From Dehalococcoides mccartyi (GTDB lineage: Bacteria; Chloroflexota; Dehalococcoidia; GIF9; DYGU01), in assembly GCA_020724525.1 (NCBI GenBank), contig DYGU01000012.1:1-46773 (forward strand): a stretch of DNA of 46,773 nucleotides, in the 5' to 3' direction. Shown here in pieces: positions 1-42,525 of the stretch. The position numbers and the translations under genes are program-made. Under the pieces are notes generated by a model. The model saw only the letters and a list, made by a program, of their open reading frames with translations. It did no database searches and had not been told where the DNA came from. Positions within the stretch are counted from its first letter, which is position 1. The number at the start of each line of letters is the position of its first letter.

Positions 1-18
1 CTGGGTCTGGGCGAGCCC

Positions 19-280
19 AGCGGAAACAACCTAATCCTCGCCAGGGGACTCCTACCCCACGAAATCCCTGATTTCGTGGGGACCCCGGATTGAAACTGGG
101 CAGTGCCCAGTGCCATATTTTTGGAGATAGTCTTAGGAAAAAGCTAATTAACTTTAGAGATTGAAGCCTAGTAAAGAAAAAGACTTATCCAGTTCTGGGT
201 CTGGGCGAGCCCAGCGGAAACAACCTAATCCTCGCCAGGGGACTCCTACTCTATGAAAACTTTGTTTTCATAGGAATTAA
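19..280 (+). repeat. CRISPR trailer-like repeat unit, left copy
   Basis: Two stand-alone copies of the CRISPR repeat (19-55 and 213-249) are separated by a 157-base unit, and each is preceded by CTGGGTCTGGGCGAGCCC. Both begin AGCGGAAAC instead of the array consensus GTCGGAAAC. The unit holds several hairpins: CCCACGAAATC/GATTTCGTGGG, ACTGGGC/GCCCAGT, and CTATGAAAAC/GTTTTCATAG after the second repeat. The same unit follows the array at 4294-4519 with only a few differences. The likely meaning is that the window opens at the end of another array of the same family; this is an inference, since the upstream sequence is not visible. Confidence 0.85.
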
Positions 281-313
281 AATGGAGTGAGAAGGAAGTA
301 AACAGCTTTGTGG

Positions 314-319
314 TATAAT
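314..319 (+). promoter_or_regulatory. Extended -10 element of the RelBE-type pair
   Basis: TATAAT preceded by TGG forms an extended -10 box 33 bases before the antitoxin start. No good -35 box is seen. A GGAGG ribosome site lies at 341-345, seven bases before the ATG. Confidence 0.55.
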
Positions 320-352
320 TTGTTATAGATTCCTTGCCGGGAGGTTCTTAGA

Positions 353-571
353 ATGAATGTGAAACAAGAAAACCTAGCGTTAATTATCTCAGAGTTGATT
401 AAACGAATGTCTCCAGAAGAGAAAATAGAATTGATGCGCCATATCAGCTGGGAAGAACTTGAGGAGTGGAAAGCTACCCAGGAAACATTGTCTAATTCTG
501 AGCTAATGGCAAACCTCAAACAAGGACTTAAGGATGAGCAGGCAGGCAAATTAGAAAAGGTAAAACTGTGA
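353..571 (+). CDS. Putative antitoxin of a RelBE/ParDE-type module
   Basis: This 72-residue protein is short, charged and probably all-helical, the usual form of an antitoxin encoded just ahead of a RelE-type toxin. It has no motif I can name with certainty. The case rests on its size, its good ribosome site (GGAGG at 341-345) and its 4-base overlap with the toxin gene at 568. The expected role is to bind and neutralise the toxin and repress the operon; this is inferred from the arrangement. The pair sits between a CRISPR trailer copy and a second toxin-antitoxin pair. Confidence 0.7.
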   Translation: MNVKQENLALIISELIKRMSPEEKIELMRHISWEELEEWKATQETLSNSELMANLKQGLKDEQAGKLEKVKL

Positions 572-834
572 GTGGGTGGAAAGTTACTTGGACAAAATCA
601 GCCCACAATTATTATCAAAAGATGGCAAAAGATTACCAGCAAAAGGTCAAGAAAGCAGTTGCCGAACTTGAGCTGGATCCCTTTGCCTCAAAAAACGTCA
701 AGCGCTTGCACGGAGAATTGGAGGGGCTATGCCGTTATCGGATTGGTAAATTTAGGATGATCTTCAGAGTCATTGAACAAGCTGGAGAGGTAAGAATCCT
801 GGCTATAGCTGCTCGAGGTGCTGTTTACAAATAA
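568..834 (+). CDS. RelE/ParE-family toxin
   Basis: The 88-residue product matches the RelE/StbE fold: an early basic segment (WTKSAHNYYQKM), the central KRLHGELEGLCRYRIGKFRM stretch and a closing strand RILAIAARGAVYK. The 'RYRIGKFRMIF' motif is typical of ribosome-dependent mRNA interferases of this superfamily. Translation starts at GTG 568, overlapping the antitoxin stop (GTGA), so the two are probably translationally coupled. The catalytic set is not conserved enough across the family to separate RelE-type RNase from ParE-type gyrase poison by eye. Confidence 0.85.
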   Translation: MSGWKVTWTKSAHNYYQKMAKDYQQKVKKAVAELELDPFASKNVKRLHGELEGLCRYRIGKFRMIFRVIEQAGEVRILAIAARGAVYK

Positions 835-985
835 GTCGCAGAAACCTGACAAGGAAGGAGAGATGTTCAAATTTGGAAGTTAGAAGTAAGGCACAGACAG
901 AGAAGGGATAAAGGACACTCACTTTATCGGATAATTGAAAGGCTACTGTCAAAGAGGGTAAACTATTGTAGGGAGGAAAACTGAA

Positions 986-1192
986 ATGAAGTTCCGTGTG
1001 ATTATAGAACATGATCCCGAGACTAACAGCTATGCTGCCCACTGTCCTGAGTTACCTGGATGTTGTAGCGCCGGTGATACTGAAGAAGAAGCTTTAGAGA
1101 ACATAAAAGAGGCAATTTCCCTTTATCTCGAACCAGTACCAGTCGAATTAAAACCAGAAAAGAAAATTTATGAAGTAGAAATCCCAGCCTGA
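986..1192 (+). CDS. hicB: HicB-family antitoxin
   Basis: The 68-residue product has the HicB partial RNase H-like fold signature: FRVIIEHDPETNSYAAHCPELPGC, then a GDTEEEALENIKEAI helix. It lacks a C-terminal DNA-binding domain, so it belongs to the short HicB form. A GGAGG site lies at 973-977. Its TGA overlaps the ATG of hicA by one base (TGATG). HicB neutralises HicA in this widespread module. The antitoxin-first gene order is common in the short form. Confidence 0.9.
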   Translation: MKFRVIIEHDPETNSYAAHCPELPGCCSAGDTEEEALENIKEAISLYLEPVPVELKPEKKIYEVEIPA

Positions 1193-1416
1193 TGGGGAAG
1201 AAACTAGCTCGCCTCAAAGCCGGTGAGATAATCAAAATCCTTCACCAACACGGCTTTATTTTGGTCTCACAACGAGGCAGCCACCAAAAATGGCGCCATC
1301 CCGAAACTGGTAATCAGGTAATTGTCCCTTACCACAAGGGCAAACAATTGCCCTTGGGCACCCTCAAAAGCATTATCGACGGCAGTGGAATTCCCGAGGA
1401 GGAATTTCAGCTTTAA
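1192..1416 (+). CDS. hicA: HicA-family mRNA interferase toxin
   Basis: The 74-residue product has the compact double-stranded RNA-binding-like HicA fold: a helix (KAGEIIKILHQHGF), the strand with the conserved His in GSHQKWRHP, and a C-terminal VPYHKGKQLPLGTLKSIIDGSG segment. The catalytic His is in RGSHQKW. HicA cleaves mRNA. The gene overlaps hicB by one base and stops only six bases before a cas2 remnant in the same frame, so this module borders a lost cas operon. Confidence 0.92.
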   Translation: MGKKLARLKAGEIIKILHQHGFILVSQRGSHQKWRHPETGNQVIVPYHKGKQLPLGTLKSIIDGSGIPEEEFQL

Positions 1417-1614
1417 AACAAAGTGGGCAAAATTCTGGAAGGATTCGGTGCTCGAGTCCAAAAAAGTGTCTTTGAATGCGACCTCCAGTTAAGGCATCCC
1501 CAGAAACTAAAGCAAAAACTGGACAAAGTCTTGAAAGAAGAGGATAACTTACGCTATTATTCTCTCTGTGCCCAATGTGTTCCCAAAGTCGAGGTGGTCA
1601 ACGTTCCCCGGTAA
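1417..1614 (+). pseudogene. cas2: N-terminally truncated cas2
   Basis: The frame right after the hicA stop reads NKVGKILEGFGARVQKSVFE, then LRYYSLCAQCVPKVEVV. These are the second half of beta1-alpha1, the hallmark GxRVQxSVFEC strand and the C-terminal LCxxC region of Cas2. The first strand with the conserved Asp (usually YDI.DDRRR) is missing, because the frame begins at the residues after RR. A GTG at 1423 could start a 63-residue product against a usual 85-95, but it would lack the metal-binding Asp. The position, cas2 then leader then array, is the normal one. This is almost surely a relic and not a working adaptation protein. Confidence 0.85.
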
Positions 1615-1746
1615 CCCAGACCCAACTATACTTTGCCGTTTAACCCCCTCGCTATCTGGAACCTTAACAAAAGCATAGTTTTAGGGCAGAAGGGTGAAGT
1701 AAAATCACACCCGCTCGCAAAACATATCTCAAAAATAAAGCTGATT
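1615..1746 (+). promoter_or_regulatory. CRISPR leader region
   Basis: A non-coding stretch of 132 bases separates the cas2 remnant from the first repeat and becomes A-rich next to it (AAAACATATCTCAAAAATAAAG). The cas2-leader-array order, and the better RNA hairpin of the repeat on this strand (UCCUC/GGGGA with one G-U pair), suggest that the array is transcribed from here on the + strand. I see no clear promoter boxes. Confidence 0.6.
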
Positions 1747-4293
1747 GTCGGAAACAACCTAATCCTCGCCAGGGGACTCCTACATTTATACCTGCTGGGC
1801 AGCCCTGGCTTAAGGTTGATAGAGGGTCGGAAACAACCTAATCCTCGCCAGGGGACTCCTACTTATTAAGGAGAGAATCCAAAATCAAATAAAAGGGCTA
1901 TGTCGGAAACAACCTAATCCTCGCCAGGGGACTCCTACCTTGCGAAGATACTTCTATCCTGATGGCAGCAATTCTCACTGCGTCGGAAACAACCTAATCC
2001 TCGCCAGGGGACTCCTACATACTCCGGGCACTCCAGTTCACTCAAGAATAGTAATTGTCGGAAACAACCTAATCCTCGCCAGGGGACTCCTACCACATGT
2101 GTCTACTACCGGTTCATCAATAGCGACAGGAACAGTCGGAAACAACCTAATCCTCGCCAGGGGACTCCTACTTTATAAAGGATATGGCGAGTTATATACT
2201 AAAGGTATACATGTCGGAAACAACCTAATCCTCGCCAGGGGACTCCTACTATTTATACCTGCTGGGCAGCCCTGGCTTAAGGTTGATAGAGTGTCGGAAA
2301 CAACCTAATCCTCGCCAGGGGACTCCTACATATTACCAACAGCATCTCTGGCACTGACGGTGTGTGAACCGTCGGAAACAACCTAATCCTCGCCAGGGGA
2401 CTCCTACATTTTCAAAGAGCGAAAGATTTTCATCGGAGCTTGTTGGAGCGTCGGAAACAACCTAATCCTCGCCAGGGGACTCCTACACATTAATTGACGA
2501 TAGGATCCCATATGTTGGCTATATAGAGTCGGAAACAACCTAATCCTCGCCAGGGGACTCCTACTGTGGTAACTGTGGCTTCGTTGGAGCCGCAGACCAT
2601 ATCGCTGCGTCGGAAACAACCTAATCCTCGCCAGGGGACTCCTACAAAGGAAGAACTAAAGCAATGGCGAAGGAGATAAAGATAAAATGTCGGAAACAAC
2701 CTAATCCTCGCCAGGGGACTCCTACGAGGTATAAGGGAGGCTCTGTACAAAGGAGATAACAAAGTGTCGGAAACAACCTAATCCTCGCCAGGGGACTCCT
2801 ACTAACGAAAGGCAGCCCGGGCATCAGTGAAGGCTTTAGTCCGTCGGAAACAACCTAATCCTCGCCAGGGGACTCCTACTGAGCTGAGTTGGATAGGAAC
2901 AACACTCCCGGATATAAGTCGGAAACAACCTAATCCTCGCCAGGGGACTCCTACTTATCACCTATGTTGCCCCTGACATGCCAGCACGGACAGGTCGGAA
3001 ACAACCTAATCCTCGCCAGGGGACTCCTACTACTAAAGAAGCCTTATCAGCATTAGTTCTTGATAGTGAGGTGTCGGAAACAACCTAATCCTCGCCAGGG
3101 GACTCCTACAGGTTTAAGGGTACTTACTGGTGAAAATAAGCTACCCGTCGGAAACAACCTAATCCTCGCCAGGGGACTCCTACCGGCGTAACTCCAGCTT
3201 AACGGCAACAGCTCTATCCATACGTCGGAAACAACCTAATCCTCGCCAGGGGACTCCTACTATCCGGAAAGCACACTGATGCTCAGCAGCAACAGCATGT
3301 CGGAAACAACCTAATCCTCGCCAGGGGACTCCTACTTGACCTCTATCTTTGCCCGTTCCTTGCCAATATCAGCTAAGTCGGAAACAACCTAATCCTCGCC
3401 AGGGGACTCCTACTGATTAGACCGTCATCTCCATACTCAGGGAATACTTCAGGTCGGAAACAACCTAATCCTCGCCAGGGGACTCCTACGTAATAACACC
3501 TCTTTGTGGATAAGTCTCTCCGAGAAAACGTCGGAAACAACCTAATCCTCGCCAGGGGACTCCTACGAGAGGAATCCATAGCTAACCAGTTACTTAATAC
3601 TGCGTCGGAAACAACCTAATCCTCGCCAGGGGACTCCTACGGCAGAATTAGATGAAGGAAGAGGACAAGCATACTCAGGTCGGAAACAACCTAATCCTCG
3701 CCAGGGGACTCCTACGAGCCCAGCGGAAACAACCTAATCCTCGCCAGGGGACTCCTACGGGTCGAGCTCTATTTTCCTCCTGGTTGCCGAGGAATGGTGT
3801 CGGAAACAACCTAATCCTCGCCAGGGGACTCCTACAGGGATTTGGTGGTTGGGGTAGCCAGGGAGGCTGGGCTCACCAAGTCGGAAACAACCTAATCCTC
3901 GCCAGGGGACTCCTACGCTCCATTTGAGGCGGAAACCACTCCACTACCCGGATTTCCGTCGGAAACAACCTAATCCTCGCCAGGGGACTCCTACTGATCC
4001 TCTGGCTCTTGAAACACCAGCCCCACTTTAGTCGGAAACAACCTAATCCTCGCCAGGGGACTCCTACTATAATCTGAAAGCTGCATATCCAATTGAGCCT
4101 AAAACGTCGGAAACAACCTAATCCTCGCCAGGGGACTCCTACTTGCTCGAGAGCACCCTGATGGACTGCTGCCAACCCTGGGTCGGAAACAACCTAATCC
4201 TCGCCAGGGGACTCCTACAAGAATGTTCTGGGGTCGTTGGAGACAAAGCTCTCCATGTCGGAAACAACCTAATCCTCGCCAGGGGACTCCTAC
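1747..4293 (+). CRISPR. CRISPR array, 34 repeats of 37 bp
   Basis: Thirty-four copies of a 37-base repeat (GTCGGAAACAAC...GGGGACTCCTAC) are separated by spacers of 36-44 bases. The repeats look nearly invariant. The exception is repeat 27 (3722-3758), which begins AGCGG and follows only 6 bases after repeat 26. Spacer 1 (1784-1825) and spacer 7 (2250-2292) share a 41-base core. The last repeat is perfect and runs into a hairpin-rich trailer. No cas genes other than a cas2 fragment are in the window, so the type (I or III most likely) cannot be told. Any activity would need Cas proteins encoded elsewhere. Confidence 0.98.
3716..3758 (+). repeat. Array fusion scar with trailer-type repeat
   Basis: After repeat 26 comes only GAGCCC, then a repeat beginning AGCGGAAAC. 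The sequence GAGCCCAGCGGAAAC is exactly the junction found at the trailer-type repeats (positions 13-27, 207-221 and 4445-4459). The simplest reading is that repeats 28-34 once followed a trailer unit of another array, and that a deletion removed all but six bases of the intervening unit. Confidence 0.75.
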
Positions 4294-4519
4294 CCCACGA
4301 AATCAGGGATTTCGTGGGGATCTCGGATTGAAACTGGGCAGTGCCCAGTGCCATATTTTTGGGATAGTCTTAGGAAAAAGCTAATTAACTTTAGAGATTG
4401 AAGCCTAGTAAAGAAAAAGACTTAATCCAGTTCTGGGTCTGGGCGAGCCCAGCGGAAACAACCTAATCCTCGTTAGGGGATTCTTACCCTATGAAAACTT
4501 TGTTTTTATGGGAATTAAT
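4294..4519 (+). repeat. CRISPR trailer unit, right copy, with degenerate repeat
   Basis: This is a 157-base unit almost identical to 56-212, then a decayed CRISPR repeat at 4451-4487 (CGTTAGGGGATTCTTAC), then a CTATGAAAAC hairpin as at the left edge. Differences from the left copy are a 3-base loop change, a short substitution and two compensating single-base indels. A decayed repeat at this end fits the leader-distal end of the array. Confidence 0.85.
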
Positions 4520-4592
4520 AGATGCCGGGTGTTATCTGAAGCGCCATGGTAAAAAGCACGACATTTATGTAAATCAAGAAATGGGAGAAAGG
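4509..4592 (+). pseudogene. HicA toxin fragment
   Basis: The frame encodes ELIDAGCYLKRHGKKHDIYV followed by NQEMGER, the N-terminal half of a YcfA/HicA-type toxin including the catalytic-His segment (RHGKKHDIY). The usual C-terminal VPRH.EI part is replaced by unrelated sequence resembling intergenic repeat. The open frame runs 4491-4673, but its first codons lie in the trailer hairpin and its last third looks non-coding. It is a broken relic next to the array, mirroring the intact HicBA pair on the other side. Confidence 0.65.
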
Positions 4593-4911: not shown

Positions 4912-5802
4912 ATGAACTTGAAAATCTGGTTCCTTGAAACCAGACCTCAATTTTTGCTCCTTTCTCCTGTCCTTATCTTCCTTGGGGTAGCCATTGCCTG
5001 GTACGAGGGCTTTTTTAACCTTTATTATTCACTCCTGGCTTTTATCGGTCTCCTGCTCCTCCACATTAGCACCAATGTCCTTAATGATTATTATGACTAT
5101 AAAAGCGGCATTGACCGGGCTACCAGAAGAACGCCTTTCAGTGGTGGCAGTGGCATTCTGCCCGCTGAGCTCCTTAAGCCAAATTCTGTTTTCCGCCTCG
5201 GCATTGTTTGTTTCCTGTTAGCCGTGCCCATAGGTATCTACTTTGTCCTGATAACCGGCTGGCAACTTCTGCCCCTCCTCCTTCTCGGAGCTATTTTTGT
5301 CCTCCTCTATACCCCCTACCTGACCCGATTAGCTTGGCCCGAGTTAGTGGCTGGTTCAGGACTGGGAACACTGCCTGTCTTAGGCGCCTATTTTGTCCAG
5401 ACTGGAACTTATACCTTACCAGCAGTAATCGCGGCTATACCTTCGGGCATTCTGGTGCACAACTTGCTCTTTTTGAACGAATTCCCTGATACCGAAGCTG
5501 ATAAAAAGGCTGGCAGAAAGACCCTGCCCATTACTTTAGGCAAGAGCAAAGCCAGCAAACTCTATGTCCTGACCACGGTAATTGTCTATCTGTGGATAAT
5601 TGGTGGTGTCATCACCGGCTTTCTCCCATTAGCCACCTTCACAGCTCTTTTGACCATTCCTTTCGCTATCAAAGCCATTAAGGGGGCTATCAACTATAAC
5701 GATAACAGCAAATTTATGCCTGCCCTCGGAGCTAATGTCCTTGTTGTCCTGTTAACTCAGTTCCTCCTCGGGATAGGTTATATATTAGCTAAGGTTATAT
5801 GA
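4912..5802 (+). CDS. menA: UbiA-family prenyltransferase, MenA-like
   Basis: This 296-residue integral membrane protein has about eight hydrophobic helices and both aspartate-rich motifs of the UbiA family: NDYYDYKSGID near 60 and NEFPDTEADKKAGRKTLP near 188. The motif wording is nearest to 1,4-dihydroxy-2-naphthoate prenyltransferase, which attaches the isoprenoid tail in menaquinone synthesis. No other menaquinone gene is in the window, so the substrate is inferred. It has a strong AAGGAGG site and overlaps tlyA by 4 bases (ATGA). A second, more divergent UbiA protein lies at 32614. Confidence 0.85.
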   Translation: MNLKIWFLETRPQFLLLSPVLIFLGVAIAWYEGFFNLYYSLLAFIGLLLLHISTNVLNDYYDYKSGIDRATRRTPFSGGSGILPAELLKPNSVFRLGIVCFLLAVPIGIYFVLITGWQLLPLLLLGAIFVLLYTPYLTRLAWPELVAGSGLGTLPVLGAYFVQTGTYTLPAVIAAIPSGILVHNLLFLNEFPDTEADKKAGRKTLPITLGKSKASKLYVLTTVIVYLWIIGGVITGFLPLATFTALLTIPFAIKAIKGAINYNDNSKFMPALGANVLVVLLTQFLLGIGYILAKVI

Positions 5803-29803: not shown

Positions 29804-30934
29804 TCAAGGAGTTCTTACCAAATACTGTTGAGCCAAACTTACCCTTTTAGTATAGGGGGGATGGTCGTAAAATAAAAGCTCCACCCAGCGACTGGGCTGA
29901 GCCTCATTAAGGTTCTGGTCGGTGAGCTTGGTCATAGCCGAGATAAAGGCTTTGGGGTTATCTGTCAGCCGCAAAGCCATCTCATCTGCAGACAGTTCAA
30001 GGCGACGACTTAAAGCACTAAAAAGGGGACTTATTACTAAGCCCAGAGCAGCTAAAATCAGAAGCAGCCAGGGCAAGGTAGCGGCATCACTCAGCCTGGA
30101 AAAAGCTAAAGGAGTAAGGCTAATCTTCAGCACCACATCTGCTATATAAAACATCCACAAAACACTAATTCCTTGCACCCCAATAAGCTTGGGAATATCC
30201 CGATGGATATGATGAGACAATTCATGAGCCAGAATCACTTCTGCTTCCTCCACTGTGTACTGATCAAGCAAAGTGTCACTGAGGATGATTCGTTTAGTGT
30301 TACCCAGCCCTGCCAGCATAGCATTTGCCATGGGACTCTTACTACTCAAATCCATAGTAAAGACATCATAGACCTGAGCCCGAGCCCGCCCGGCTAAGTT
30401 CAATAACCTTTCCCGGAGCTCGGTATCCTTAAGCGGCTCAAGCTTGAAGAAAAGAGATAAAAGTAGGTTGGGCGTCAGCCAGGTTAAAAGCAGACTGAGC
30501 AGGAGTAACAGAATTGCCCCTAAAAACCACCACACGCCCGGGAAATGCTCCATTAACCAGTAAATAGCCATCACTAACCCGGTGCCCAAAAGCAAGCTCA
30601 ATATTAAAACTTTAGCCACATCCCCGAGCCAGCCTCTTAATTCCTGGGTCAACAGCCCATAACGCCGGGGTAGAATAAAATCGTCATAATAGCTTAAGGG
30701 TGCCATAATTATCCCGTAGCCGAAAACTAAAATTAGAAAGTATAAAGCTGACGCCCAGGGCTGAGGAAAATCTAAGAAACGACTTATTTCAATTGAGACA
30801 CCGCCAAAAACAAGCAGCAGCAACAGGACAGCAGCTATAGCTAACTCAATAAAAAAGAAACGACGCTTAAGGCTGGCATATTTCCGGGCTTTTTCCTGAC
30901 GGGCTGGGTCAAGTTGGTTTATTGCTGGAGTCAA
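29804..30934 (-). CDS. M48-family membrane metalloprotease (Ste24-like)
   Basis: The roughly 376-residue product has several transmembrane segments in its first half. The zinc motif VILAHELSHHIHRD is near 234-247, and a later Glu is in LELSADEMALRL near 315. The layout follows the CAAX prenyl protease 1/HtpX group, and the length suits Ste24-like proteins. The start is unclear: the longest frame uses TTG 30934 without a clear ribosome site. In bacteria these proteases are linked to membrane protein quality control. Confidence 0.87.
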   Translation of the reverse strand: MTPAINQLDPARQEKARKYASLKRRFFFIELAIAAVLLLLLVFGGVSIEISRFLDFPQPWASALYFLILVFGYGIIMAPLSYYDDFILPRRYGLLTQELRGWLGDVAKVLILSLLLGTGLVMAIYWLMEHFPGVWWFLGAILLLLLSLLLTWLTPNLLLSLFFKLEPLKDTELRERLLNLAGRARAQVYDVFTMDLSSKSPMANAMLAGLGNTKRIILSDTLLDQYTVEEAEVILAHELSHHIHRDIPKLIGVQGISVLWMFYIADVVLKISLTPLAFSRLSDAATLPWLLLILAALGLVISPLFSALSRRLELSADEMALRLTDNPKAFISAMTKLTDQNLNEAQPSRWVELLFYDHPPYTKRVSLAQQYLVRTP

Positions 30935-32613: not shown

Positions 32614-33483
32614 TTAGCTTTTGCCCAAGAATAGACTGATAACAAGAATGGCATTGACTGCCAGGTAGTTCAGGGCGGTATTATTTACCGCGGGGAGGAG
32701 TTTCGCCGGTTCGTCATAATATCGGCTCACCAGTGAACTCCCTTTTAAGGCCAGAGGCAGGCTTAGCAAGGTCAATAGGGAAAGCCAGGGAAGTACTTGA
32801 ATTGCCACCCCAAGGAGGATAAGACCATAAGAAGAGAAAAGAGTGGTCATATAAAGGGTGCCACTCTTTTCCTTACCGAACCTGACCACAATATTTCTCT
32901 TTCCTGCCAGCATATCCTGATAGTAATCAGGTATCTCATTTAATATCGCCAGGGAGAGGATAAGGGTGCCTGGGATAAGGGAGCTAAAGATGGCAACAGC
33001 ATCTACTTTCAGGCTCTGAATATAGTAGCTGCCCAGAACCATTAGTGGACCATAGGCCAGGAAGATGGCTATTTCTCCCAGCCCCCTGTATATTAGCCTT
33101 AACGGGGAGCCGACATAGAAGAAAGCGATAAGGAACCCCAGGAATGCCAGGATAATAACCAGAACTCCGGTTTGCACCGTCAGATAAATCCCGATAGGCA
33201 AAGCCAGAGCAAAACAGCCTACCCCAAGCCAAAACTTGTAATGAGAAGCCTGGACTACGTTTTCGGAAAATAGTCTATCTGTCGGCTCAAAATACTCATT
33301 AAAGGCTTCTACCCCGGTAAAGGCGAGAACCATCCCCAAGAGACCAAGTAGGAAAAAGGCAGGGTTGAAGGGAACAGAGTAGTAAAAGGCGACGGCGGCA
33401 CCAAGGACATAGGGCAGAGCACCGGCAACGACGAAAAAGCGATATCTAATGAGGCGGAAAAAACGAAGGAAAAATGGCTTCAA
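32614..33483 (-). CDS. Divergent UbiA-family prenyltransferase of the peptide cluster
   Basis: This 289-residue protein has about eight membrane helices. The first UbiA motif is FNEYFEPTDRLF (N-x3-E-x2-D in place of NDxxDxxxD) and the second is NEIPDYYQDMLAGKRNIVVR, with the Asp pair kept. It should transfer a prenyl chain onto an aromatic or other acceptor at the membrane. Its start overlaps the radical SAM gene by 4 bases (ATGA), and it is the last gene of the peptide-PqqD-radical SAM operon, so the acceptor may be a modified peptide product. This link is inferred from gene order. A role in quinone or haem A synthesis is not supported by neighbours. Confidence 0.85.
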   Translation of the reverse strand: MKPFFLRFFRLIRYRFFVVAGALPYVLGAAVAFYYSVPFNPAFFLLGLLGMVLAFTGVEAFNEYFEPTDRLFSENVVQASHYKFWLGVGCFALALPIGIYLTVQTGVLVIILAFLGFLIAFFYVGSPLRLIYRGLGEIAIFLAYGPLMVLGSYYIQSLKVDAVAIFSSLIPGTLILSLAILNEIPDYYQDMLAGKRNIVVRFGKEKSGTLYMTTLFSSYGLILLGVAIQVLPWLSLLTLLSLPLALKGSSLVSRYYDEPAKLLPAVNNTALNYLAVNAILVISLFLGKS

Positions 33484-34445
33484 AAACCTAAGTCAACAAA
33501 GTCGTTGGCTCGGGCAAGGAGAGAAGGTGTTTCCGTCACCGAATTTACATATTTTATGACCTCGGGACGTTCCCAAGCTTTTATGTAACGCTGCCAAATC
33601 TCGGCTAAGCTGTGCCTCCTGACATCTCCGCAGACGAAAGGCATTGAACCGATAAGTTTGACCTTGCCATTAGCCATCAGTAGTAGACTGGCGGCAGGGT
33701 ACTCCAGGCGATACTTCAACTCTTCTACAACGCTATAGGGGTAAAAGAGAATAGCCATCCTATTTCTATATTCCTCAGCCTTTCTCTCCAAGCGGCGGCT
33801 CAGCTCTTCATTCTCCTCCTCACTAAGGCCGATTGTATCCCAATTCCTAACTGCCCTCCCGATATACATGGTTTTCCCGGTATAGAAGGCTTTGACTCCC
33901 AACTCAGCGGCCATATCAATGAGCCTTTCCGCCTCATGGCTGTTGAACTTGGCAGGAACATAGATAATTTCTGTGGTTACGCCATGTTTAACCAGCTCCT
34001 TGATGGCATTAAGGGCTTTCTCTAACTTTGCTCCGGCCCTCATCATAGAATAGGTCTCCTGGCTGGCGCCATCAACACTGATCTGAACCGAGCGAAGCTT
34101 AAGGGAGGCGAGCCTTCTGGCACTTTCACCATCAATGGGATGGCCGTTACTTTCTATCTTGATGTCGACGCCATTTTTGGAAAAAGACTCACAAACCCGC
34201 CAAAACGCCGGATAAAGTAATGGCTCCCCGCCAGATAGAGCAACATAGGGTATCTGAAGCTCCATAACCTGGCGGCAAACTTCCATCGCCTCTTGTTCTG
34301 CTAACTCATCAGGCCAAGCAGCCTGAGGTCCCGACTCCCAGAGGCAATGGATGCAATTCAAGTTGCATTTGTTGGTCATATGCCAAGCAAAGAAGAGAGG
34401 GGATTTTAAATCAGAGAAGCCTATTCCTTGGAGGTCTTTAGCCAT
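33480..34445 (-). CDS. Radical SAM peptide-modifying enzyme (PqqE/MftC-like)
   Basis: The 321-residue product has HMTNKCNLNCIHCLWESG with the CxxxCxxC cluster site near 22-29, YVALSGGEPLLYPAFW (the GGEP motif) and SVQISVDGAS. These mark the PqqE/MftC/SPASM-type branch. The C-terminal region has few Cys (MPFVCGD), so a full SPASM twin-cluster domain is not evident. It lies 10 bases after a PqqD-like gene and a small peptide gene. ATG 34445 is preferred; TTG 34454 is the longer option. The likely role is modifying the encoded peptide. Confidence 0.85.
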   Translation of the reverse strand: MAKDLQGIGFSDLKSPLFFAWHMTNKCNLNCIHCLWESGPQAAWPDELAEQEAMEVCRQVMELQIPYVALSGGEPLLYPAFWRVCESFSKNGVDIKIESNGHPIDGESARRLASLKLRSVQISVDGASQETYSMMRAGAKLEKALNAIKELVKHGVTTEIIYVPAKFNSHEAERLIDMAAELGVKAFYTGKTMYIGRAVRNWDTIGLSEEENEELSRRLERKAEEYRNRMAILFYPYSVVEELKYRLEYPAASLLLMANGKVKLIGSMPFVCGDVRRHSLAEIWQRYIKAWERPEVIKYVNSVTETPSLLARANDFVDLGF

Positions 34446-34455
34446 CCCTAACAAC

Positions 34456-34704
34456 CTATTGCATTAGTCCAGCTTGGCGCAATTGCTCAAGGAATGATGA
34501 GACATCCCGCTGTATAATTTCGCGGGATGTCTCATATTTGTGGCTCAATTGCTCTACAGCCTCGTCTATTGTCTGTGCGTTTTGTATTGCTGCCAAGACA
34601 TCCTTCCCCACTTCATCCGTAACAAAAAACTTTTCCGTCTCTTTGTCGAAAATGATAACCCCAAATTGTTCTTGTCTAATTTTAACGTGGGGGAGAAGTT
34701 CCAT
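34456..34704 (-). CDS. PqqD-like peptide chaperone (RRE protein)
   Basis: The 82-residue product has the PqqD fold: VKIRQEQFGVIIFDKETEKF, TDEVGKDVLAAIQNAQTIDE, then a C-terminal helix VSSFLEQLRQAGLMQ. PqqD-type RREs bind a leader peptide and present it to the partner radical SAM enzyme. Only 7 bases separate its ATG from the stop of the 27-codon peptide gene, and the radical SAM gene follows in the same direction. The set matches the layout of pqqADE and mftABC. Confidence 0.88.
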   Translation of the reverse strand: MELLPHVKIRQEQFGVIIFDKETEKFFVTDEVGKDVLAAIQNAQTIDEAVEQLSHKYETSREIIQRDVSSFLEQLRQAGLMQ

Positions 34705-34711
34705 ACTTTAA

Positions 34712-34795
34712 CTACGTGAACCTAATGAATGGCTGTGCCATTATCTTGCCAGTAACATCAATAAGCTTTGGTTTTTTCCATTCCTTTTTCTGCAT
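34712..34795 (-). CDS. Putative ribosomal precursor peptide, 27 residues
   Basis: A 28-codon frame reads MQKKEWKKPKLID at its start and ends MAQPFIRFT. It has a strong AAGGAGG site (34804-34810) eight bases before the ATG and a consensus promoter just upstream. It lies 7 bases before a PqqD-like gene and a radical SAM gene. The WxKPxxxD pattern recalls leaders of PqqA and of some lasso peptides, but the Glu and Tyr crosslinked in PQQ are absent, and there is no Cys. The position and size are those of PqqA and MftA. The product is unknown. Confidence 0.75.
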   Translation of the reverse strand: MQKKEWKKPKLIDVTGKIMAQPFIRFT

Positions 34796-34828
34796 AAGCT
34801 TGCCCTCCTTGTACTTAAGCCAGGATTT

Positions 34829-34858
34829 ATTATAAAAGCATTAACCATAAGTTGTCAA
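34829..34858 (-). promoter_or_regulatory. Consensus promoter of the peptide cluster
   Basis: On the minus strand TTGACA (34858-34853), 18 bases, TATAAT (34834-34829): both boxes are perfect. It lies 33 bases before the peptide start. A dyad AGCACT/AGTGCT at 34871-34900 lies just upstream (higher coordinates) and may end the preceding transcript. Confidence 0.8.
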
Positions 34859-34911: not shown

Positions 34912-35754
34912 TTAGCTCTGTAGTCTCTTTTCAAGCATCCGGGCAAAATGTATATCCTTGGCTGCCTTCAGCCGAGCTATGGTTGTATCGTAACTATCTA
35001 ATCGCTCTTCTTCCAGGTTCTTAGCCAAGAGAGGATGAACCTGGCGCAATTTAGCCAACAGGAGTTGCTTTTCTGGCTCTGACATAACTTTCGAGTCAGT
35101 CATAGCAGCCGCCCGAGCACAGATTCCTGCCTCCAAAAGATACTGCAGTGCCTTAAAGGGGAGTTCATAATATTCGCCAATAGCTCCCGTTCTCTGGGTA
35201 AACCCTTCAGGAGTCGCTGCTTTAAAAGAAACCCTTATATAGAGCTTTTCTCTAAATTGGCTTAATTCTCTAGCATACTCTCTATCTGAGCCAAGGAGAA
35301 TACCGTTGGTTTCTAGGATAAAAAGGCGATATTTGGAAGCCATCACATATTTTAGAACCGACAACAAATGTTGTTTTCCAATGGTGGGCTCACACCCTGA
35401 TAAACGAAGCTTTTTAACCTTAAGATGTTTAAAAGCCTCCCAACCTGGAGAAGTTATACCTCTTTCGGCGGCTTCGAAAAGTTTTCCAGCCACTTCTTCC
35501 GGAGAATAAAAACTCCCGAACTTTTCAGGAAAGTCACGAGACCAGTTACTCCAGCAGTAAATACATCGTAAGCAACAGCCAACAGCATAACCAGTGGCAA
35601 TGCCTCCATAGACCAGGGCTGAGTAGATACCAACGTATTTCCTTTCTAATCCCTCCGCACCTTCCCGAGTTACCATCTTCTCCGTTTCTTTGGCTATGTC
35701 TAAAGGGTCAAAGGGTTGACTTGATGGAGTAATAAAGCGAGGATAAGCTTTCAT
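34912..35754 (-). CDS. Radical SAM protein (activase-like)
   Basis: The 280-residue product has GYAVGCCLRCIYCWSNWSRD with the CxxxCxxC motif near 57-64 and LRLSGCEPTIGKQHLL, where GCEP replaces GGEP. The RLFILETNG strand is typical of activase-type radical SAM proteins. I cannot assign a substrate. It ends 54 bases before the promoter of the peptide cluster and is transcribed toward it, 13 bases after an aldo/keto reductase gene. It might act in the same pathway, but it has its own upstream transcription. Confidence 0.78.
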   Translation of the reverse strand: MKAYPRFITPSSQPFDPLDIAKETEKMVTREGAEGLERKYVGIYSALVYGGIATGYAVGCCLRCIYCWSNWSRDFPEKFGSFYSPEEVAGKLFEAAERGITSPGWEAFKHLKVKKLRLSGCEPTIGKQHLLSVLKYVMASKYRLFILETNGILLGSDREYARELSQFREKLYIRVSFKAATPEGFTQRTGAIGEYYELPFKALQYLLEAGICARAAAMTDSKVMSEPEKQLLLAKLRQVHPLLAKNLEEERLDSYDTTIARLKAAKDIHFARMLEKRLQS

Positions 35755-36876: not shown

Positions 36877-38085
36877 ATGGACAAGGTAGTTTATCTGGAC
36901 AATACGGCGACTACTCCAGTGCACCCTAAAGTGTTAGAAGCCATGTTGCCCTATTTCTCCGAAAGGTTTGGCAATGCAGCTACTATTTATAGTCTGGGAC
37001 AAGAAGCCCGCCAGGCATTGGACGAATCCAGAAAAGAGGTAGCTGATATTCTTGGCTCTTCGCCTCAGGAGGTTATCTTTACCAGTGGTGGCACTGAGTC
37101 GGTTAATACCGCTTTAAAGGGAATAGCTTTCGCCCTTCAGAAACAGGGAAATCATGTTATTACCTCTTCTATAGAACACCACGCCGGGCTGGAAACCTGT
37201 CATTTCTTAGAAAAATTCGGCTTTGAAGTAACCTATTTGCCCGTGAACAGCTATGGTATGGTCAGAGTTGAAGATTTAGAAAAGGCTGTCACCGATAGGA
37301 CTATCCTTGTCAGTATTATGTTAGCCAACAATGAGGTTGGCACCATCCAGCCCATTCCTGAAATTGCCCGACTTATCAGGCAGCAAGGGGGAAGGAAGAT
37401 TTTCTTCCATACCGATGCTGTCCAGGGGACAAACTGGCTTGACCTCAATGTTAACCAGCTCGGCATTGACGCCCTCAGTCTATCAGCCCACAAGTTTTAC
37501 GGACCAAAAGGCACCGGGATTCTCTACCTGAGAAAAGGTACCCCCTTTATGCCTCAGCAGAAGGGTGGTGCTCAGGAAAGCAACCGTCGTGCCGGGACAA
37601 GCAATGTTCCCGGGATTGTCGGCACAACTGTAGCCCTGAAATTAGCCGCAGAACATCGGGAGACAAATAGCAATTACTGCCGGAAATTGCGCGACCATCT
37701 TATTGACGGAATTAAAGGAAAAATTGACCAGGCAGAACTCGTGGGACACCCAACACTACGTTTGCCCAATCATGCTGCCTTTTGCTTCTACGGCATAGAA
37801 GGAGAGGCTATCCTGCTCCACCTGGATTTCGCCAATATATGTGCTTCCAGCGGTAGTGCCTGTACCTCTATGTCCCTGGAACCCTCCCATGTCCTTATGG
37901 CTATGGGAATACCACCAGAAAAAGCCCATGGTAATGTGCGCTTCACCCTCGGACCTGAAAATACCCAGGAAGAGATAGACTATGTCCTTTCTGTATTGCC
38001 TGGGATTGTAGACAAGCTCAGGGCAATATCGCCTTTTCCCATGGCACAAAGTCCGGATAAATCGTCAAAGGAGTCATGTAAATGA
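36877..38085 (+). CDS. Cysteine desulfurase (NifS/IscS family)
   Basis: This PLP enzyme takes sulfur from cysteine as a persulfide for cluster assembly and sulfur transfer. The 402-residue product starts [20 protein letters not shown], has the PLP lysine in [15 protein letters not shown] near 206 and the catalytic Cys in [12 protein letters not shown] near 325. Position and length fit the NifS-type group. It overlaps the Rrf2 gene by 4 bases. Its neighbours suggest that its persulfide feeds the MoeB/CysO/TusA system downstream. Confidence 0.95.
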
Positions 38086-38525
38086 AGATATCTACTCGTG
38101 GCAGATATGGGCTCAGGGCTCTGGAAGAATTAGCTCTCCATTATGGTGAAGGTCCGGTATTAATTAAGGACATCGCTAAAAAGCAAGGAATTTCCCAGTA
38201 TTACCTGGAGCAAATAGTCATGGTGCTTAAAGCCGCCGGGATGGTCAAAAGTATCCGCGGGGCAAAAGGTGGCATTGCTTTAACCAGACCACCACATGAG
38301 ATAAAGCTTGGTGACGTCCTCCAGGTGCTGGAAGGTTCTACAGCTCCAGTGGAATGCGTTGACAATGCCCAGTCATGCTTCCGGTCTACTTTTTGTGTCA
38401 GTCGAGATGTCTGGGTAGAAATGAAACAGGCTATTGATCAGGTGTTGGTGTCTAAGACCCTTCAAGATTTGGTTGACCAGCACAAGATAAAGGAACAACC
38501 AAAGCCAGGAATGTATTACATCTAA
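38082..38525 (+). CDS. Rrf2-family regulator (IscR-like)
   Basis: The 147-residue product has the Rrf2 winged helix: [45 protein letters not shown], then a segment with three Cys ([15 protein letters not shown], spacing 6 and 5) that could bind an Fe-S cluster as in IscR (spacing 5 and 5). It would sense cluster status and control the desulfurase operon. It overlaps the desulfurase gene by 4 bases. Confidence 0.92.
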
Positions 38526-38567
38526 ACTAACCCCCAGCCACTTCCCAGAACTACAGCTCGGTGACTA

Positions 38568-38597
38568 TTGGGCTGGAAATTCCTTTTCTGATATAAT
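38568..38597 (+). promoter_or_regulatory. Probable promoter of the moeB-cysO set
   Basis: TATAAT at 38592-38597 with TTGGGC 18 bases upstream (38568-38573), 54 bases before the E1 start codon. The -10 box is perfect, the -35 box weak. Confidence 0.5.
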
Positions 38598-38651
38598 AGC
38601 CGCCTAAATTAATCGACATAGTTAATTCTGGCAAATTTTAAGGACAGAGAT

Positions 38652-39470
38652 ATGGAAGTAAGTTTAACCGAGGAACAAATTGAGCGCTATAGCCGTCAAA
38701 TAGTCCTACCACAAATTGGCGGCAAGGGGCAGAAGCAGCTTTTAAAGGCAAAAGTCTTCGTAGTTGGTGCTGGAGGCTTGGGGTCAATAGCCGCAATGTA
38801 CTTAGCCGCTGCCGGGGTGGGCAAACTGGGTATTATTGATTTTGACCGGGTTGACCTGAGTAATTTACATCGTCAGTTGCTTCACCATACCCACGATATA
38901 GGTAGACAGAAGGTAGTCTCAGCAGCAGAAGCCATTGCTGACATCAACACTGATGTTGAGGTAGTGCCATATCCATATCAGTTAACCACCGATAATATAA
39001 TGGATATTATTGCTGATTATGATGTCATAGTTGATGGTACAGATAATTTCCCCACACGCTATTTGATGAATGACGCCTGTGTTTTAGCCAGAAAGCCCAA
39101 TGTCCACGGTAGCGTCCTCTCCTTTGAAGGAACAGTTACCCTTTTCCTTCCCGATAATGGGTGCTACCGCTGCCTTTTCCCAACACCACCGCCACCAGGT
39201 GTAGTACCCACTTGTGCCGAGGCGGGAGTCTTAGGCATACTCCCCGGAATAATCGGGCTTATCCAAGCCACAGAGACCATTAAGTTCATCCTTGGTATTG
39301 GTCATTCCCTCGCTGGACGACTGCTGGTCTTTGATGCCTTGGCTATGGAATTCCATGAGTTGAAGTGGCGCCGGAATCCAGCTTGTCCCGTCTGTGGCGA
39401 CAATCCTACCATCACCCAATTGCTCACGAACTACGAGTATACCTGCGCTGTGCCTATCAGTTCCCATTAA
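38652..39470 (+). CDS. MoeB/ThiF-family E1-like adenylyltransferase
   Basis: This 272-residue E1-like enzyme activates the C-terminus of a ubiquitin-like sulfur carrier as an acyl-adenylate. It has RYSRQIVLPQIGGKGQKQLL, the ATP loop VVGAGGLGSIAAMYLAAAGV, and DFDRVDLSNLHRQLLH. The zinc cysteines are CYRC and CPVC, and the PTCAEAGVLG loop holds the candidate active-site Cys. The carrier gene follows after 24 bases. No rhodanese domain is attached, so sulfur may come from the desulfurase or TusA. Confidence 0.95.
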   Translation: MEVSLTEEQIERYSRQIVLPQIGGKGQKQLLKAKVFVVGAGGLGSIAAMYLAAAGVGKLGIIDFDRVDLSNLHRQLLHHTHDIGRQKVVSAAEAIADINTDVEVVPYPYQLTTDNIMDIIADYDVIVDGTDNFPTRYLMNDACVLARKPNVHGSVLSFEGTVTLFLPDNGCYRCLFPTPPPPGVVPTCAEAGVLGILPGIIGLIQATETIKFILGIGHSLAGRLLVFDALAMEFHELKWRRNPACPVCGDNPTITQLLTNYEYTCAVPISSH

Positions 39471-39494
39471 TTCTTATGGCTTAAGGAGGTTCTT

Positions 39495-39776
39495 ATGTCC
39501 ATTGAGGTACGAGTTGGTAGCATTCTTCGGAAAAAACTAAACAATGCTAAGTCTGTTGAGGCACAGGGAAATAATGTCCGCCAGGTGCTTGAAGATCTGG
39601 AAAGAAGTTATCCTGGCTTTAAGAGTCAAATTGTTACAGAAACCGGCGAGATACATCATTTTATCAACATCTTTTTAAACGATGAAGATATCCGTTTCTT
39701 GGATGGATTGGACACCAAGGTAAAAGACGACAATATCATCACTATACTGCCGGCAGTAGCTGGAGGTAATAAATAA
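39495..39776 (+). CDS. MoaD/CysO-like sulfur carrier with masked C-terminus
   Basis: The 93-residue product is a beta-grasp carrier: RKKLNNAKSVEAQGNNVRQV, LEDLERSYPGFKSQIV and a C-terminal NIITILPAVAGGNK. The Gly-Gly needed for thiocarboxylate formation is followed by Asn-Lys, so the tail must be cut first. A JAMM protease gene lies nearby at 40316. This matches processed carriers such as QbsE of Pseudomonas and HcyS of Wolinella, which are trimmed by JAMM proteins. A strong AAGGAGG site precedes the ATG. With a cysteine synthase downstream, a CysO-like role is likely. Confidence 0.9.
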   Translation: MSIEVRVGSILRKKLNNAKSVEAQGNNVRQVLEDLERSYPGFKSQIVTETGEIHHFINIFLNDEDIRFLDGLDTKVKDDNIITILPAVAGGNK

Positions 39777-39781
39777 AAAAG

Positions 39782-40120
39782 ATGTCCTACGCAAAAGCTC
39801 TACAGTGCCGGGGATATTGCGTTAATCCAACTTATTCCTTTAAAGGCCGCGTCGTCTCTGTGGCAATCACCAAAGCTCGGGAATTTGGCTTCGACACTTT
39901 AGCTCGCGCTTCAGCTAAGAGCAAAATTTATGCCTGCCCTACGCCCATGGCATTTCACAACCTTAATAAGGATAAGATAGTAGAAGAAGCAGAGGGAGCC
40001 TGTAGTCTCGTTGAGTTCCTTCGCGAACACACCAAAGATGCGTCTATGGTTTTTATGTATAAATGGATGGAACTAAAATTGATGCCAAACTTGATTTACA
40101 GGGCATCCTTTGCCCCATAA
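39782..40120 (+). pseudogene. Threonine synthase remnant
   Basis: The start MSYAKALQCRGYC fits the N-terminal zinc-finger-like start of threonine synthases (MSY.KAL.CR.C). It jumps directly to NPTYSFKGRVVSVAITKARE and FGFDTLARAS, the PLP-site stretch of these enzymes with Gly in place of the Asp after the PLP Lys. Some 60-80 residues normally between the two are gone. The rest (ACPTPMAFHNLNKDKIVEEA) I cannot place. The frame overlaps tusA. It starts 5 bases after the carrier gene, so a full threonine synthase-like gene probably once belonged to this set. Confidence 0.6.
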
Positions 40121-40299
40121 ACTTCGTCAAAACAAAGCTCCAGCTCGAAGAAATGGAACCGGGACAAATTCTGGGCCTGATTCTTGATGATGGCGAACCC
40201 ATACAAAGTGCCCCTCGCAGCCTGAAAGAAGAAGGACATCGAGTAATCAAAGTAGAGAATTTTGAAAACGCCTTTAAATTATTAGTTCAAAAGGCTTAA
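40063..40299 (+). CDS. tusA: TusA-family sulfurtransferase
   Basis: The 78-residue product has the TusA signature DLQGILCPINFVKTKLQLEE, with the active Cys in LCP (near 17), and a C-terminal half HRVIKVENFENAFKLLVQKA. TusA proteins relay persulfide sulfur from a cysteine desulfurase. The second Pro of the usual CPxP motif is Asn here (CPIN). It overlaps the threonine synthase remnant by 58 bases and lies close to the JAMM gene. Confidence 0.88.
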   Translation: MDGTKIDAKLDLQGILCPINFVKTKLQLEEMEPGQILGLILDDGEPIQSAPRSLKEEGHRVIKVENFENAFKLLVQKA

Positions 40300-40315
40300 T
40301 CAGGTCAATTTAAAT

Positions 40316-40750
40316 TTGGGTGTTGAAAAACCAAAAAACAGAGCCAAAAGCTCTTTTTGCCTGGCAAAACAGTATGCTAACCAGATGATTACCCATGCCC
40401 GGAGCCAAGCTCCCCTGGAATGTTGCGGTATCCTTGCCGGTGCCAGTGGCAAGGTGGTCAAAGTTTATACCACCACCAATATTGAACAAAGCCCTGTTCG
40501 CTATAATATCGATCCCTCAGAAATCCTTCGCATCCACAAAGATATTAAAGAAAAAAGGTGGGAATTCCTTGGTATCTACCACTCCCATACTCATACCGAA
40601 GCCTACCCCTCCCCGGCTGATATCCAACTCGCCTTCTGGCCCGACTCCCTCTACTTTATCATTTCTCTCCAGAACCCGGACCAGCCAGTTATCCGGGCTT
40701 TTCTTATCGAAGATAAGAAGGTTAAAGAAATATCCCTAAAAATAGCCTGA
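40316..40750 (+). CDS. JAMM/MPN+ metalloprotease of the sulfur carrier
   Basis: The roughly 144-residue product has the JAMM zinc site GIYHSHTHTEAYPSPADIQLA (HxHx7Sx2D) near 96 and an upstream Glu in PLECCGILAG. In Mycobacterium the homologue Mec+ frees cysteine from CysO; QbsD and HcyD trim residues after the Gly-Gly of carriers. Here trimming of the carrier's Asn-Lys, release of a carrier-linked amino acid, or both, are plausible. TTG 40316 gives the longest frame; the start is uncertain, with no clear ribosome site. Confidence 0.9.
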   Translation: MGVEKPKNRAKSSFCLAKQYANQMITHARSQAPLECCGILAGASGKVVKVYTTTNIEQSPVRYNIDPSEILRIHKDIKEKRWEFLGIYHSHTHTEAYPSPADIQLAFWPDSLYFIISLQNPDQPVIRAFLIEDKKVKEISLKIA

Positions 40751-40847
40751 AAACAGGCATCCTTTTACCTAACACTTCCGTTACAAAATTTGAATTTTTA
40801 TTAAGCCAGCTTTAGAATAGTCAATGAACCAAAGGAGGTGAGATAAA

Positions 40848-41642
40848 ATGACTCTTTTTTACCCCGTTACCGAAGCTGAAATAACCAGAGCTATTGTCAG
40901 TAGCTTCCTACAACAGTGTGAACAATATGTCCAAAGTGATGTAATAATAGTTGGTGGTGGTCCCAGTGGGCTCATGGCGGGTAAGCAACTTGCTAAAACG
41001 GGATTGAAAGTGTTGATTGTAGAAAGAAATAACTATTTGGGTGGTGGTTTCTGGATAGGCGGTTACTTAATGAACCAAGTAACCTTGAGAGCACCATCCC
41101 AAAGAATCCTTGATGAGCTGGGCGTACCCTATCAAAAGGCTATAGAAGGGCTTTATGTTGCCGATGGTCCTCATGCTTGCTCTAAACTTATTGCGGCTAC
41201 TTGCGATGCCGGTGTCAAATTTGCCAATATGACCATTTTTGATGATGTGGTCTTGCGTGAAAATAATCAAGTCGCTGGGGTGGTGATTAACTGGACACCT
41301 ATCTCTGCCTTACCACGAGAGATAACCTGTGTCGACCCAGTTGCTATAGAGTCGAAGTTGGTAATCGATGCCAGTGGTCACGATGCCTGTGTAGCCAGGA
41401 AATTGGAAGAAAGAGGCATCCTGAAGGTAGTTGGCTTTGGAGCTATGTGGGTAGGGAAATCGGAGGACCTGGTAGTGGAGCATACCGGTGAAGTACACCC
41501 CGGGCTTATTGTCACGGGCATGGCTGTTACCACAGTCTATGGCTTGCCGAGGATGGGACCTACTTTCGGAGCTATGCTCCTTTCTGGAGAACAAGCTGCC
41601 GAGGTTGCCTTGCAAAGGCTGAAGGCTAAGTCCAGCATATGA
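40848..41642 (+). CDS. thi4: Thi4-family thiazole synthase with sulfur-donor Cys
   Basis: The 264-residue product has the FAD/NAD-type dinucleotide motif [20 protein letters not shown] near 31-50, [17 protein letters not shown], and the closing [16 protein letters not shown]. It makes the thiazole part of thiamine. The stretch ITCVDP (Cys161) lies where yeast Thi4 has the Cys whose sulfur is consumed; sulfide-using archaeal members have His in GLHVDP. So this may be a one-turnover Cys-type enzyme, or the Cys may carry a persulfide. A very strong AAAGGAGGTGA site (40834-40844) suggests high expression, which suits a suicide enzyme. Confidence 0.9.
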
Positions 41643-41682
41643 GTACCAAGACCAAGTCGATTTGTGTAGAGTAACTCGCTGA

Positions 41683-42525
41683 ATGAATTGGGCACAACAT
41701 GTTTATCTCTATGATGAGCCCAGTGCTGCCACTCTGGATGCTTCAATACTCGGCTCCTTTATAAAGACCCTTTTACCCGAAATCAAGATTGCGGTTAGAG
41801 ATAGCTTCATCGGCTTTCATTTCGTGTCTTTATCCCAGGAAGAAAGAAAGAGAAAGATTGACTATCTCGCTGAAGAACTTGCCAAAGCTAAGGTCAGAGA
41901 TCCGTTCAAGCCGTTGAAGAAGGAATCCCCTCTGCCTGGAGAAATAAACTACGAAAAGAGAAGACTCAGTGCACCGATTAGCCAGTCTTTTGGTCTCCTT
42001 TATGATGGTATTGAGATAATAAATATCCTTAGAGAGTTAATTCCCAAACAGGAGCGAAGTTTCAAGCATATTCATATTATCTTCACTAATCAACTTTTTG
42101 GCACCTGGGATGAGGCTAACCACAGATACCATGCTCGGGTGCTCATCTGTAGCTTTCCATCCCTAATATCCACTACTGGCATTGTCGAGGCACCTGCCAA
42201 GCCGAGAGAGTTTTATCTTCTTAAAAAACAATACTTATCTGTGGGAATGCCAGATATCGAGGGGATAAAATTCCAATATAAAGACCAGTTTATAGACTAT
42301 GATGATAATCGGCTCACCCAGGTAATGAAGGGATACGTAATGCAAGCCCTTTTCTACCACCTAACCGGTGAACCCTTTTGCGAGGATAAAAATTGTCGTC
42401 TTTATAATAGTCACTGGCAAAAAGAAGTAATTCAGGCACAACTGGAAAGCCCTTATGAATTTTGCTCCTTCCATCAGAAAGAGCTTCAAAGATTGAGTGA
42501 CAGGTTAAAAAGTATAAGCATATAA
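41683..42525 (+). CDS. DUF6775-like protein, putative metalloprotease
   Basis: The 280-residue product resembles DUF6775, an uncharacterised family I recall from archaea and anaerobic bacteria. Visible features are YDGIEIINILRELIP, an IHIIFTNQLFGTWDEANHRY stretch with His pairs, and a C-terminal cysteine set CEDKNC ... FCSFHQKEL that could bind zinc. No HExxH is present. It lies between Thi4 and cysteine synthase. The assignment is from memory of the pattern and is moderate at best. Confidence 0.55.
   Translation: MNWAQHVYLYDEPSAATLDASILGSFIKTLLPEIKIAVRDSFIGFHFVSLSQEERKRKIDYLAEELAKAKVRDPFKPLKKESPLPGEINYEKRRLSAPISQSFGLLYDGIEIINILRELIPKQERSFKHIHIIFTNQLFGTWDEANHRYHARVLICSFPSLISTTGIVEAPAKPREFYLLKKQYLSVGMPDIEGIKFQYKDQFIDYDDNRLTQVMKGYVMQALFYHLTGEPFCEDKNCRLYNSHWQKEVIQAQLESPYEFCSFHQKELQRLSDRLKSISI

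Follow-up and report, generated by a model that had tools for sequence, protein, structure and literature searches.

A rare bacterial gene set for a short conserved peptide, a PqqD-type protein, radical SAM enzymes and a UbiA prenyltransferase suggests a peptide-derived, lipid-anchored electron carrier

An operon encoding a 27-residue peptide, a PqqD-type RRE protein, a radical SAM enzyme and a UbiA-superfamily prenyltransferase, in that order behind a promoter, lies on the minus strand (34858-32614) of the window, the 46,773-nucleotide stretch of DNA analysed here. Four other genomes carry the same components, the peptide C-terminus AQP[FY]IRFT included, and the four-part set is thus more than a chance assembly. 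Unrelated bacteria have relatives of the operon within their photosynthesis and extracellular-electron-transfer gene clusters, a placement that suggests a class of electron carrier, derived from a peptide and anchored by a lipid, that has not been described. The best reading of the operon is that it probably encodes a RiPP cofactor-type pathway, whose product gains a prenyl chain and so becomes a membrane redox compound.

Organisation of the operon

The features of the operon are collected in Table 1. They bear out what the earlier note had read from the letters: a perfect promoter, a strong ribosome-binding site (AAGGAGG, eight bases 5' of the peptide ATG) and four minus-strand genes with spacings of 7, 10 and -4 bases, of which the PqqD, radical SAM and UbiA genes have Pfam matches. 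The promoter lies in the interval that separates the peptide gene from the upstream gene, which ends at 34912, and the radical SAM gene has an alternative TTG start at 34454. A perfect 14-base inverted repeat (AUGAGACAUCCCGC/GCGGGAUGUCUCAU) is located within pqqD (34493-34537, minus strand); the predicted hairpin is strong in the window (RNA fold z -6.0) but absent in a related Bacillota locus (L003, below), and it was rejected as a regulatory element.

Table 1. Features of the operon in the window
Feature	Position	Strand	Evidence
Sigma-70-type promoter, TTGACA-N18-TATAAT	34829..34858	-	12/12 consensus match
Ribosome-binding region AAGGAGGGCAAGCTT ahead of the peptide ATG	34796..34815	-	direct reading
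Precursor peptide gene, 27 aa, MQKKEWKKPKLIDVTGKIMAQPFIRFT	34712..34795	-	stop included; kept in five loci
PqqD-family RRE protein, 82 aa	34456..34704	-	PF05402 E=2e-14
Radical SAM enzyme, 321 aa	33480..34445	-	PF04055 E=7e-23; CxxxCxxC present
UbiA-superfamily membrane prenyltransferase, 289 aa, TTG start	32614..33483	-	PF01040 E=9e-19

Elsewhere in the window, positions 1-4520 hold a CRISPR-like array in which a repeat like GTCGGAAACAACCTAATCCTCGCCAGGGGACTCCTAC occurs about 35 times at a spacing of 74-81 bases; a near-identical block lies on either side of it (17-280 and 4255-4518). A run of apparent sulfur-transfer genes is present on the plus strand (36877-42525); by eye these resemble genes for a cysteine desulfurase and Rrf2-like, ThiF/MoeB-like, MoaD/ThiS-like, TusA-like, JAB-like peptidase and Thi4-like proteins.

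The gene set is very rare and crosses phyla

A protein search of 84,980 species genomes with the radical SAM enzyme identified three loci, in a Bacillota MAG (L003, 71% identity to the enzyme of the window), a gammaproteobacterial bog MAG (L004, 44%) and an Azospirillaceae MAG, an alphaproteobacterium (L005, 41%). A profile search added a fourth relative (L018), from the same family as the genome of L004. Peptide, PqqD, radical SAM and UbiA genes occur together at all five loci, a sample of only five that comes nearly entirely from metagenome-assembled genomes. Whether UbiA is missing from most such sets, a question left by the earlier note, is answered by its presence in 5/5.

Gene order in L003 is the same as in the window, with the peptide first. 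The proteobacterial clusters (n=3) are arranged as PqqD, rSAM1, UbiA, rSAM2, peptide, rSAM3, and so encode three paralogous radical SAM enzymes where the window and L003 encode one; UbiA adjoins the rSAM1 gene in every cluster (5/5).

The system is very rare, being found in 1/84 genomes of the window's order and 1/400 sampled genomes of its phylum, in 1/20 genomes of the order of L003, in 1/82 of the order and 1/337 of the class of L005, in 1/321 sampled genomes of the class of L004, and in 2/217 of the family of L018's genome (L004's included); in all of these tallies the matches are only the genomes already named. Viral contigs held no relatives of the radical SAM enzyme, and plasmids held none beyond mycofactocin MftC and other radical SAM enzymes at about 31-34%. 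The patchy spread across phyla suggests that the set has moved between them by gene transfer.

A conserved precursor peptide

All five peptides contain WxxPx[LM]xDV and then AQP[FY]IRFT directly before the stop, and their invariant residues include W, P, DV, AQP and, at the exact C-terminus, IRFT. The peptide of the window has the leader motif WKKPKL and the conserved C-terminal core AQPFIRFT; its core and that of L003 carry Phe, not Tyr, at the variable position. Between the window and L003, the peptide genes show 10 base changes that are synonymous, the residue being kept, and 8 in residue-changing codons, the 8 being mostly N-terminal. The peptide has no NCBIfam match and no Pfam model above cut-off. 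It had been remarked in the earlier note that the Glu/Tyr pair of PqqA and the Val-Tyr end of MftA are missing from the peptide, and this holds for the set: there is no conserved Glu-x3-Tyr across the five loci, and the peptides end in IRFT. Among viral contigs an exact AQP[FY]IRFT-stop occurred in a single sequence, the same frame in two contigs; it lacks the WxxP leader, lies beside none of the PqqD, radical SAM and UbiA genes, and was set aside as chance.

A frame this short behind a promoter and a strong ribosome-binding site would, on those features alone, be compatible with a mere upstream regulatory or chance ORF. However, the amino-acid conservation across phyla, the synonymous changes and the different location of the gene in the proteobacterial clusters leave this explanation with next to no probability, and an upstream regulatory ORF was rejected on the conservation and the differing position. 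The conserved small frame that had been proposed to lie upstream of pqqD is indeed present in 5/5 loci, but it is upstream in two and elsewhere in the cluster in three. Its placement in the proteobacteria excludes an upstream leader ORF; the peptide, which accompanies the enzymes without a fixed place, therefore behaves like a substrate and unlike an attenuator.

The PqqD-type protein and the radical SAM enzymes

The best NCBIfam match of the window's PqqD is lasso_PqqD_Strm (43.9 bits, under the cut-off of 70), and its profile matches in the PDB are the lasso RREs TfuB1 and TbiB1; judged by sequence similarity, it is most like the discrete lasso-peptide RREs. Such RREs recognise the leader motif [Y/W]xxPx[L/V/I/F/A] (PMC13381572), which is fitted by WKKPKL, WKKPQL and WEKPTL among the peptides, while WETPKM and WEAPKM have Met. 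Because of the exact motif match and the RRE relatedness, we propose that PqqD would grip the leader of the 27-residue peptide through WxxPx[LM], as the first step of the pathway.

An AlphaFold model of the radical SAM enzyme (pLDDT 88) has SkfB as its best fold match (Z 28.7, rmsd 2.4 over 274), followed by SuiB (25.6) and PqqE (23.9), so that the enzyme is predicted to have a RiPP-maturase fold; by sequence, SkfB and PqqE are the closest. The CxxxCxxC motif is kept and the SPASM cluster cysteines are missing. In the operon enzymes there is no Cys in the columns that hold the cysteines of MftC after the radical SAM domain, bar one position in one L005 copy, and a family cysteine, C272, is kept in rSAM1 and rSAM2 and lost in rSAM3. 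MftC is the best NCBIfam match (TIGR03962, 113.5 bits versus a cut-off of 265), and the PqqE model TIGR02109 scores 62 bits versus a cut-off of 381. In a tree the enzymes fall into four clades (window with L003, rSAM1, rSAM2 and rSAM3), and the branch that would join window and L003 with proteobacterial rSAM1 has values of 47/82.

PqqE requires both of its auxiliary clusters for peptide cross-linking (PMC10906245). Since the operon enzymes have no ligands for such clusters, their chemistry should, by analogy, differ from that of PqqE. We strongly infer that the peptide is the substrate of the radical SAM enzyme; the C-terminal core is the probable site of modification. In the second step the enzyme would modify the nearly invariant AQP[FY]IRFT, with three paralogous enzymes employed in the proteobacterial versions. 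It is very likely, taking the two steps jointly, that PqqD grips the leader and the radical SAM enzyme modifies the core.

A second, short radical SAM protein is encoded just upstream of the operon (34912-35754, minus strand) and has no NCBIfam match of E below 1e-10. It is not conserved beside L003, and we rejected it as a partner.

The UbiA prenyltransferase

The UbiA protein of the window has the motifs NEYFE..D and DYYQD.LAGKRN, and in an alignment of four sequences both Asp-rich motifs, NEYF[ED]..D and D..QD..GKRN, are present in 4/4. The UbiAs of the five loci group together in a single clade (100/99), whose nearest neighbours among the sequences compared are MenA-type enzymes. Scores against MenA equivalog models are all under cut-off, the best being 107 bits versus 264, with TIGR00751 at 79.5 versus 102, and among solved structures UBIAD1 is the best fold match (Z 23.8). 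The operon UbiA is a MenA-like member of the UbiA superfamily in a clade of its own, with both metal motifs intact.

One possible role of a MenA-like enzyme would be to make a conventional quinone, e.g. menaquinone, needed alongside an unprenylated cofactor produced by the peptide, PqqD and radical SAM genes. The best scores of UbiA, though below cut-off, are indeed to MenA models. Against this, UbiA is constant in the clusters and always beside the rSAM1 gene, the operon enzymes form their own clade, and no DHNA pathway gene lies within the clusters. In the genome of L003, the completeness of which is not given, no UbiA was found besides that of the operon. MqnA/D were not found in the window genome and gave only weak, unconvincing matches in that of L003; menaquinone synthesis via futalosine was accordingly rejected. 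We consider the conventional-quinone explanation quite unlikely.

That UbiA prenylates the product of the operon is, in our assessment, likely: in the fourth step the dedicated MenA-like enzyme would join the modified product, which is probably aromatic, to a polyprenyl chain. Alternatively, UbiA may use a different acceptor. With Phe in the core of the window and L003 peptides, the acceptor ring would need prior oxidation, by a pathway with one radical SAM enzyme and no auxiliary cluster. The window genome encodes two further UbiAs, one MenA-like and one CtaB-like, and may therefore have prenylated compounds of its own; the MenA-like one, encoded within the window (4912-5802, plus strand), scores 158 bits to a MenA model, below cut-off.

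Genomic neighbourhoods suggest a possible role in membrane electron transfer

In L004 the cluster starts 55 bases past pufC, the last gene of a bchZ-pufL-pufM-pufC run, with puhE downstream on the other strand. The proteobacterial copy other than L004 and L018 (labelled L019) lies behind crtC and close to crtD, and genes for a polyprenyl synthase and for a CrtF/BchU-like methyltransferase are present further out. In L018 (6374-16509) the peptide/radical SAM/UbiA cluster comes directly behind an mtrC-mtrA-mtrB run, starting about 46 bases after mtrB, and no BchG-like enzyme was picked out among the UbiAs of that genome. Photosynthesis (two) or mtrCAB (one) genes thus adjoin 3/3 proteobacterial copies, and these neighbourhoods are the best functional clue; around the window operon and L003 no electron-transfer context was found. 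None of the five clusters encodes a peptidase, a transporter, an immunity protein or a regulator. A minus-strand gene 1.7 kb downstream of UbiA (29804-30934, same strand) encodes an M48 protease with a Ste24/CAAX N-terminal membrane region; it is not conserved beside the other loci and was rejected as the processing enzyme.

The gene content bears on the possibility that the product is a bacteriocin-like RiPP, or one for signalling, that has no part in redox reactions. Relatives of the RRE do work in lasso-peptide pathways, and the radical SAM enzyme is nearest to SkfB, the maturase of a killing factor. However, the clusters have no transporter, immunity or regulator gene, and they are placed in photosynthesis and Mtr operons. 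Moreover, the final four residues of the mycofactocin precursor are invariant across phyla, and such cofactor systems have been contrasted with fast-changing bacteriocins (Haft 2011, PMC3023750); by the same argument, the nearly invariant core found here across phyla has the grammar of a cofactor rather than a bacteriocin. A killing or signalling role is therefore highly improbable.

A stronger competitor to the small redox cofactor, albeit still unlikely, is that the modified peptide is itself prenylated and stays a peptide. It would then be a membrane-anchored RiPP acting as a signal, a regulator or a small subunit in assemblies of reaction-centre or cytochrome proteins, with UbiA as the source of its anchor. 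No cluster encodes a peptidase, the last residue of the core is also the last of the peptide, a position beside puf and mtr operons suits a small membrane component too, and peptides prenylated by other enzymes exist (ComQ, cyanobactin enzymes; PMC10373908). On the other side, no exporter or sensor is present, and the operon UbiA is MenA-like. UbiA enzymes act on small aromatic or polar-lipid acceptors in the cases familiar to us.

For the small redox compound that we favour, the leader would be trimmed, as a third step, by a peptidase from outside the operon. In the fifth step the lipid-anchored product would work in membrane electron transfer, serving the reaction-centre chain in phototrophs and the MtrCAB conduit in one organism; judging from gene neighbourhood, we give this role about an even chance. 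More tentatively, it is possible that the complete product is a ribosomally encoded, polyprenylated membrane electron carrier akin to a lipoquinone, built by an RRE, one or more auxiliary-cluster-free radical SAM enzymes and UbiA, which works in alternative electron chains (bacterial reaction centres, Mtr conduits) and has spread between phyla by gene transfer.

Discussion

In summary, the gene logic proposed in the earlier note (peptide, RRE, radical SAM, UbiA) holds, with frame and UbiA at every locus, and its reading as a whole is supported in part. Its view that the set had not been described also stands, as neither Pfam nor NCBIfam has a model for the peptide and no paper in the open-access collection searched joins radical SAM, PqqD and UbiA. 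Likewise, none in that collection joins radical SAM, PqqD and bacteriochlorophyll, and its three papers with both PqqD and UbiA are, by title, genome or transcriptome studies of other subjects.

To our knowledge, all known lipoquinones are made from small molecules, chorismate and tyrosine among them, and the peptide-derived PQQ and mycofactocin are soluble or sugar-tailed. If our proposal is true, a membrane carrier that derives from a peptide, bears a prenyl chain and is linked to photosynthetic reaction centres or outer-membrane electron conduits would join lipoquinones and peptide cofactors, and would add a RiPP class with a UbiA enzyme. The operon also offers maturase-fold, peptide-modifying radical SAM enzymes predicted to be without auxiliary-cluster ligands, together with a very short conserved substrate.

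Identity with the PQQ and mycofactocin pathways was rejected on the precursor features, the missing SPASM cysteines and the model cut-offs, and identity with the lasso pathway on the missing B2 and C genes. Mycofactocin (MftA/MftB/MftC) has a short precursor with an invariant C-terminus, a PqqD-type RRE and a radical SAM enzyme in the same order, and it is a peptide-derived electron carrier, as proposed for the operon product. However, the operon peptides do not end in Cys-Gly-Val-Tyr, the operon radical SAM enzyme has no SPASM cysteines and falls under the MftC cut-off, and the clusters have UbiA in place of MftD/E/F partners. The PQQ pathway (PqqA/PqqD/PqqE) shares the PqqD partner and a radical SAM enzyme of similar predicted fold, and PqqA also has a W..P leader. 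It differs in the Glu-Tyr pair of its peptide, in having PqqB/C/F and no UbiA, and in the auxiliary clusters essential to PqqE (PMC10906245), for which the operon enzyme has no ligands. Lasso peptides with a discrete RRE (B1) resemble the operon in RRE and in leader motif (PMC13381572), whereas the neighbouring genes scanned here include no transglutaminase-like B2 protease or asparagine-synthetase-like C protein and instead encode radical SAM and UbiA enzymes.

We know of no UbiA-family member among the cyanobactin and ComQ prenyltransferases. Prenylated RiPPs (cyanobactins; ComX, modified by ComQ) share with the operon the pairing of a ribosomal peptide and a prenyltransferase (PMC10373908). 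They are not known to have a radical SAM or RRE partner of the kind found here. Finally, the part proposed for the operon UbiA is similar to that of DmkA in Gram-positive extracellular electron transfer, a UbiA dedicated to a separate membrane quinone pool for electron export. The acceptor of DmkA is an ordinary naphthoquinone precursor and not a peptide; dmkA is named in PMC9888254 and PMC12421875.
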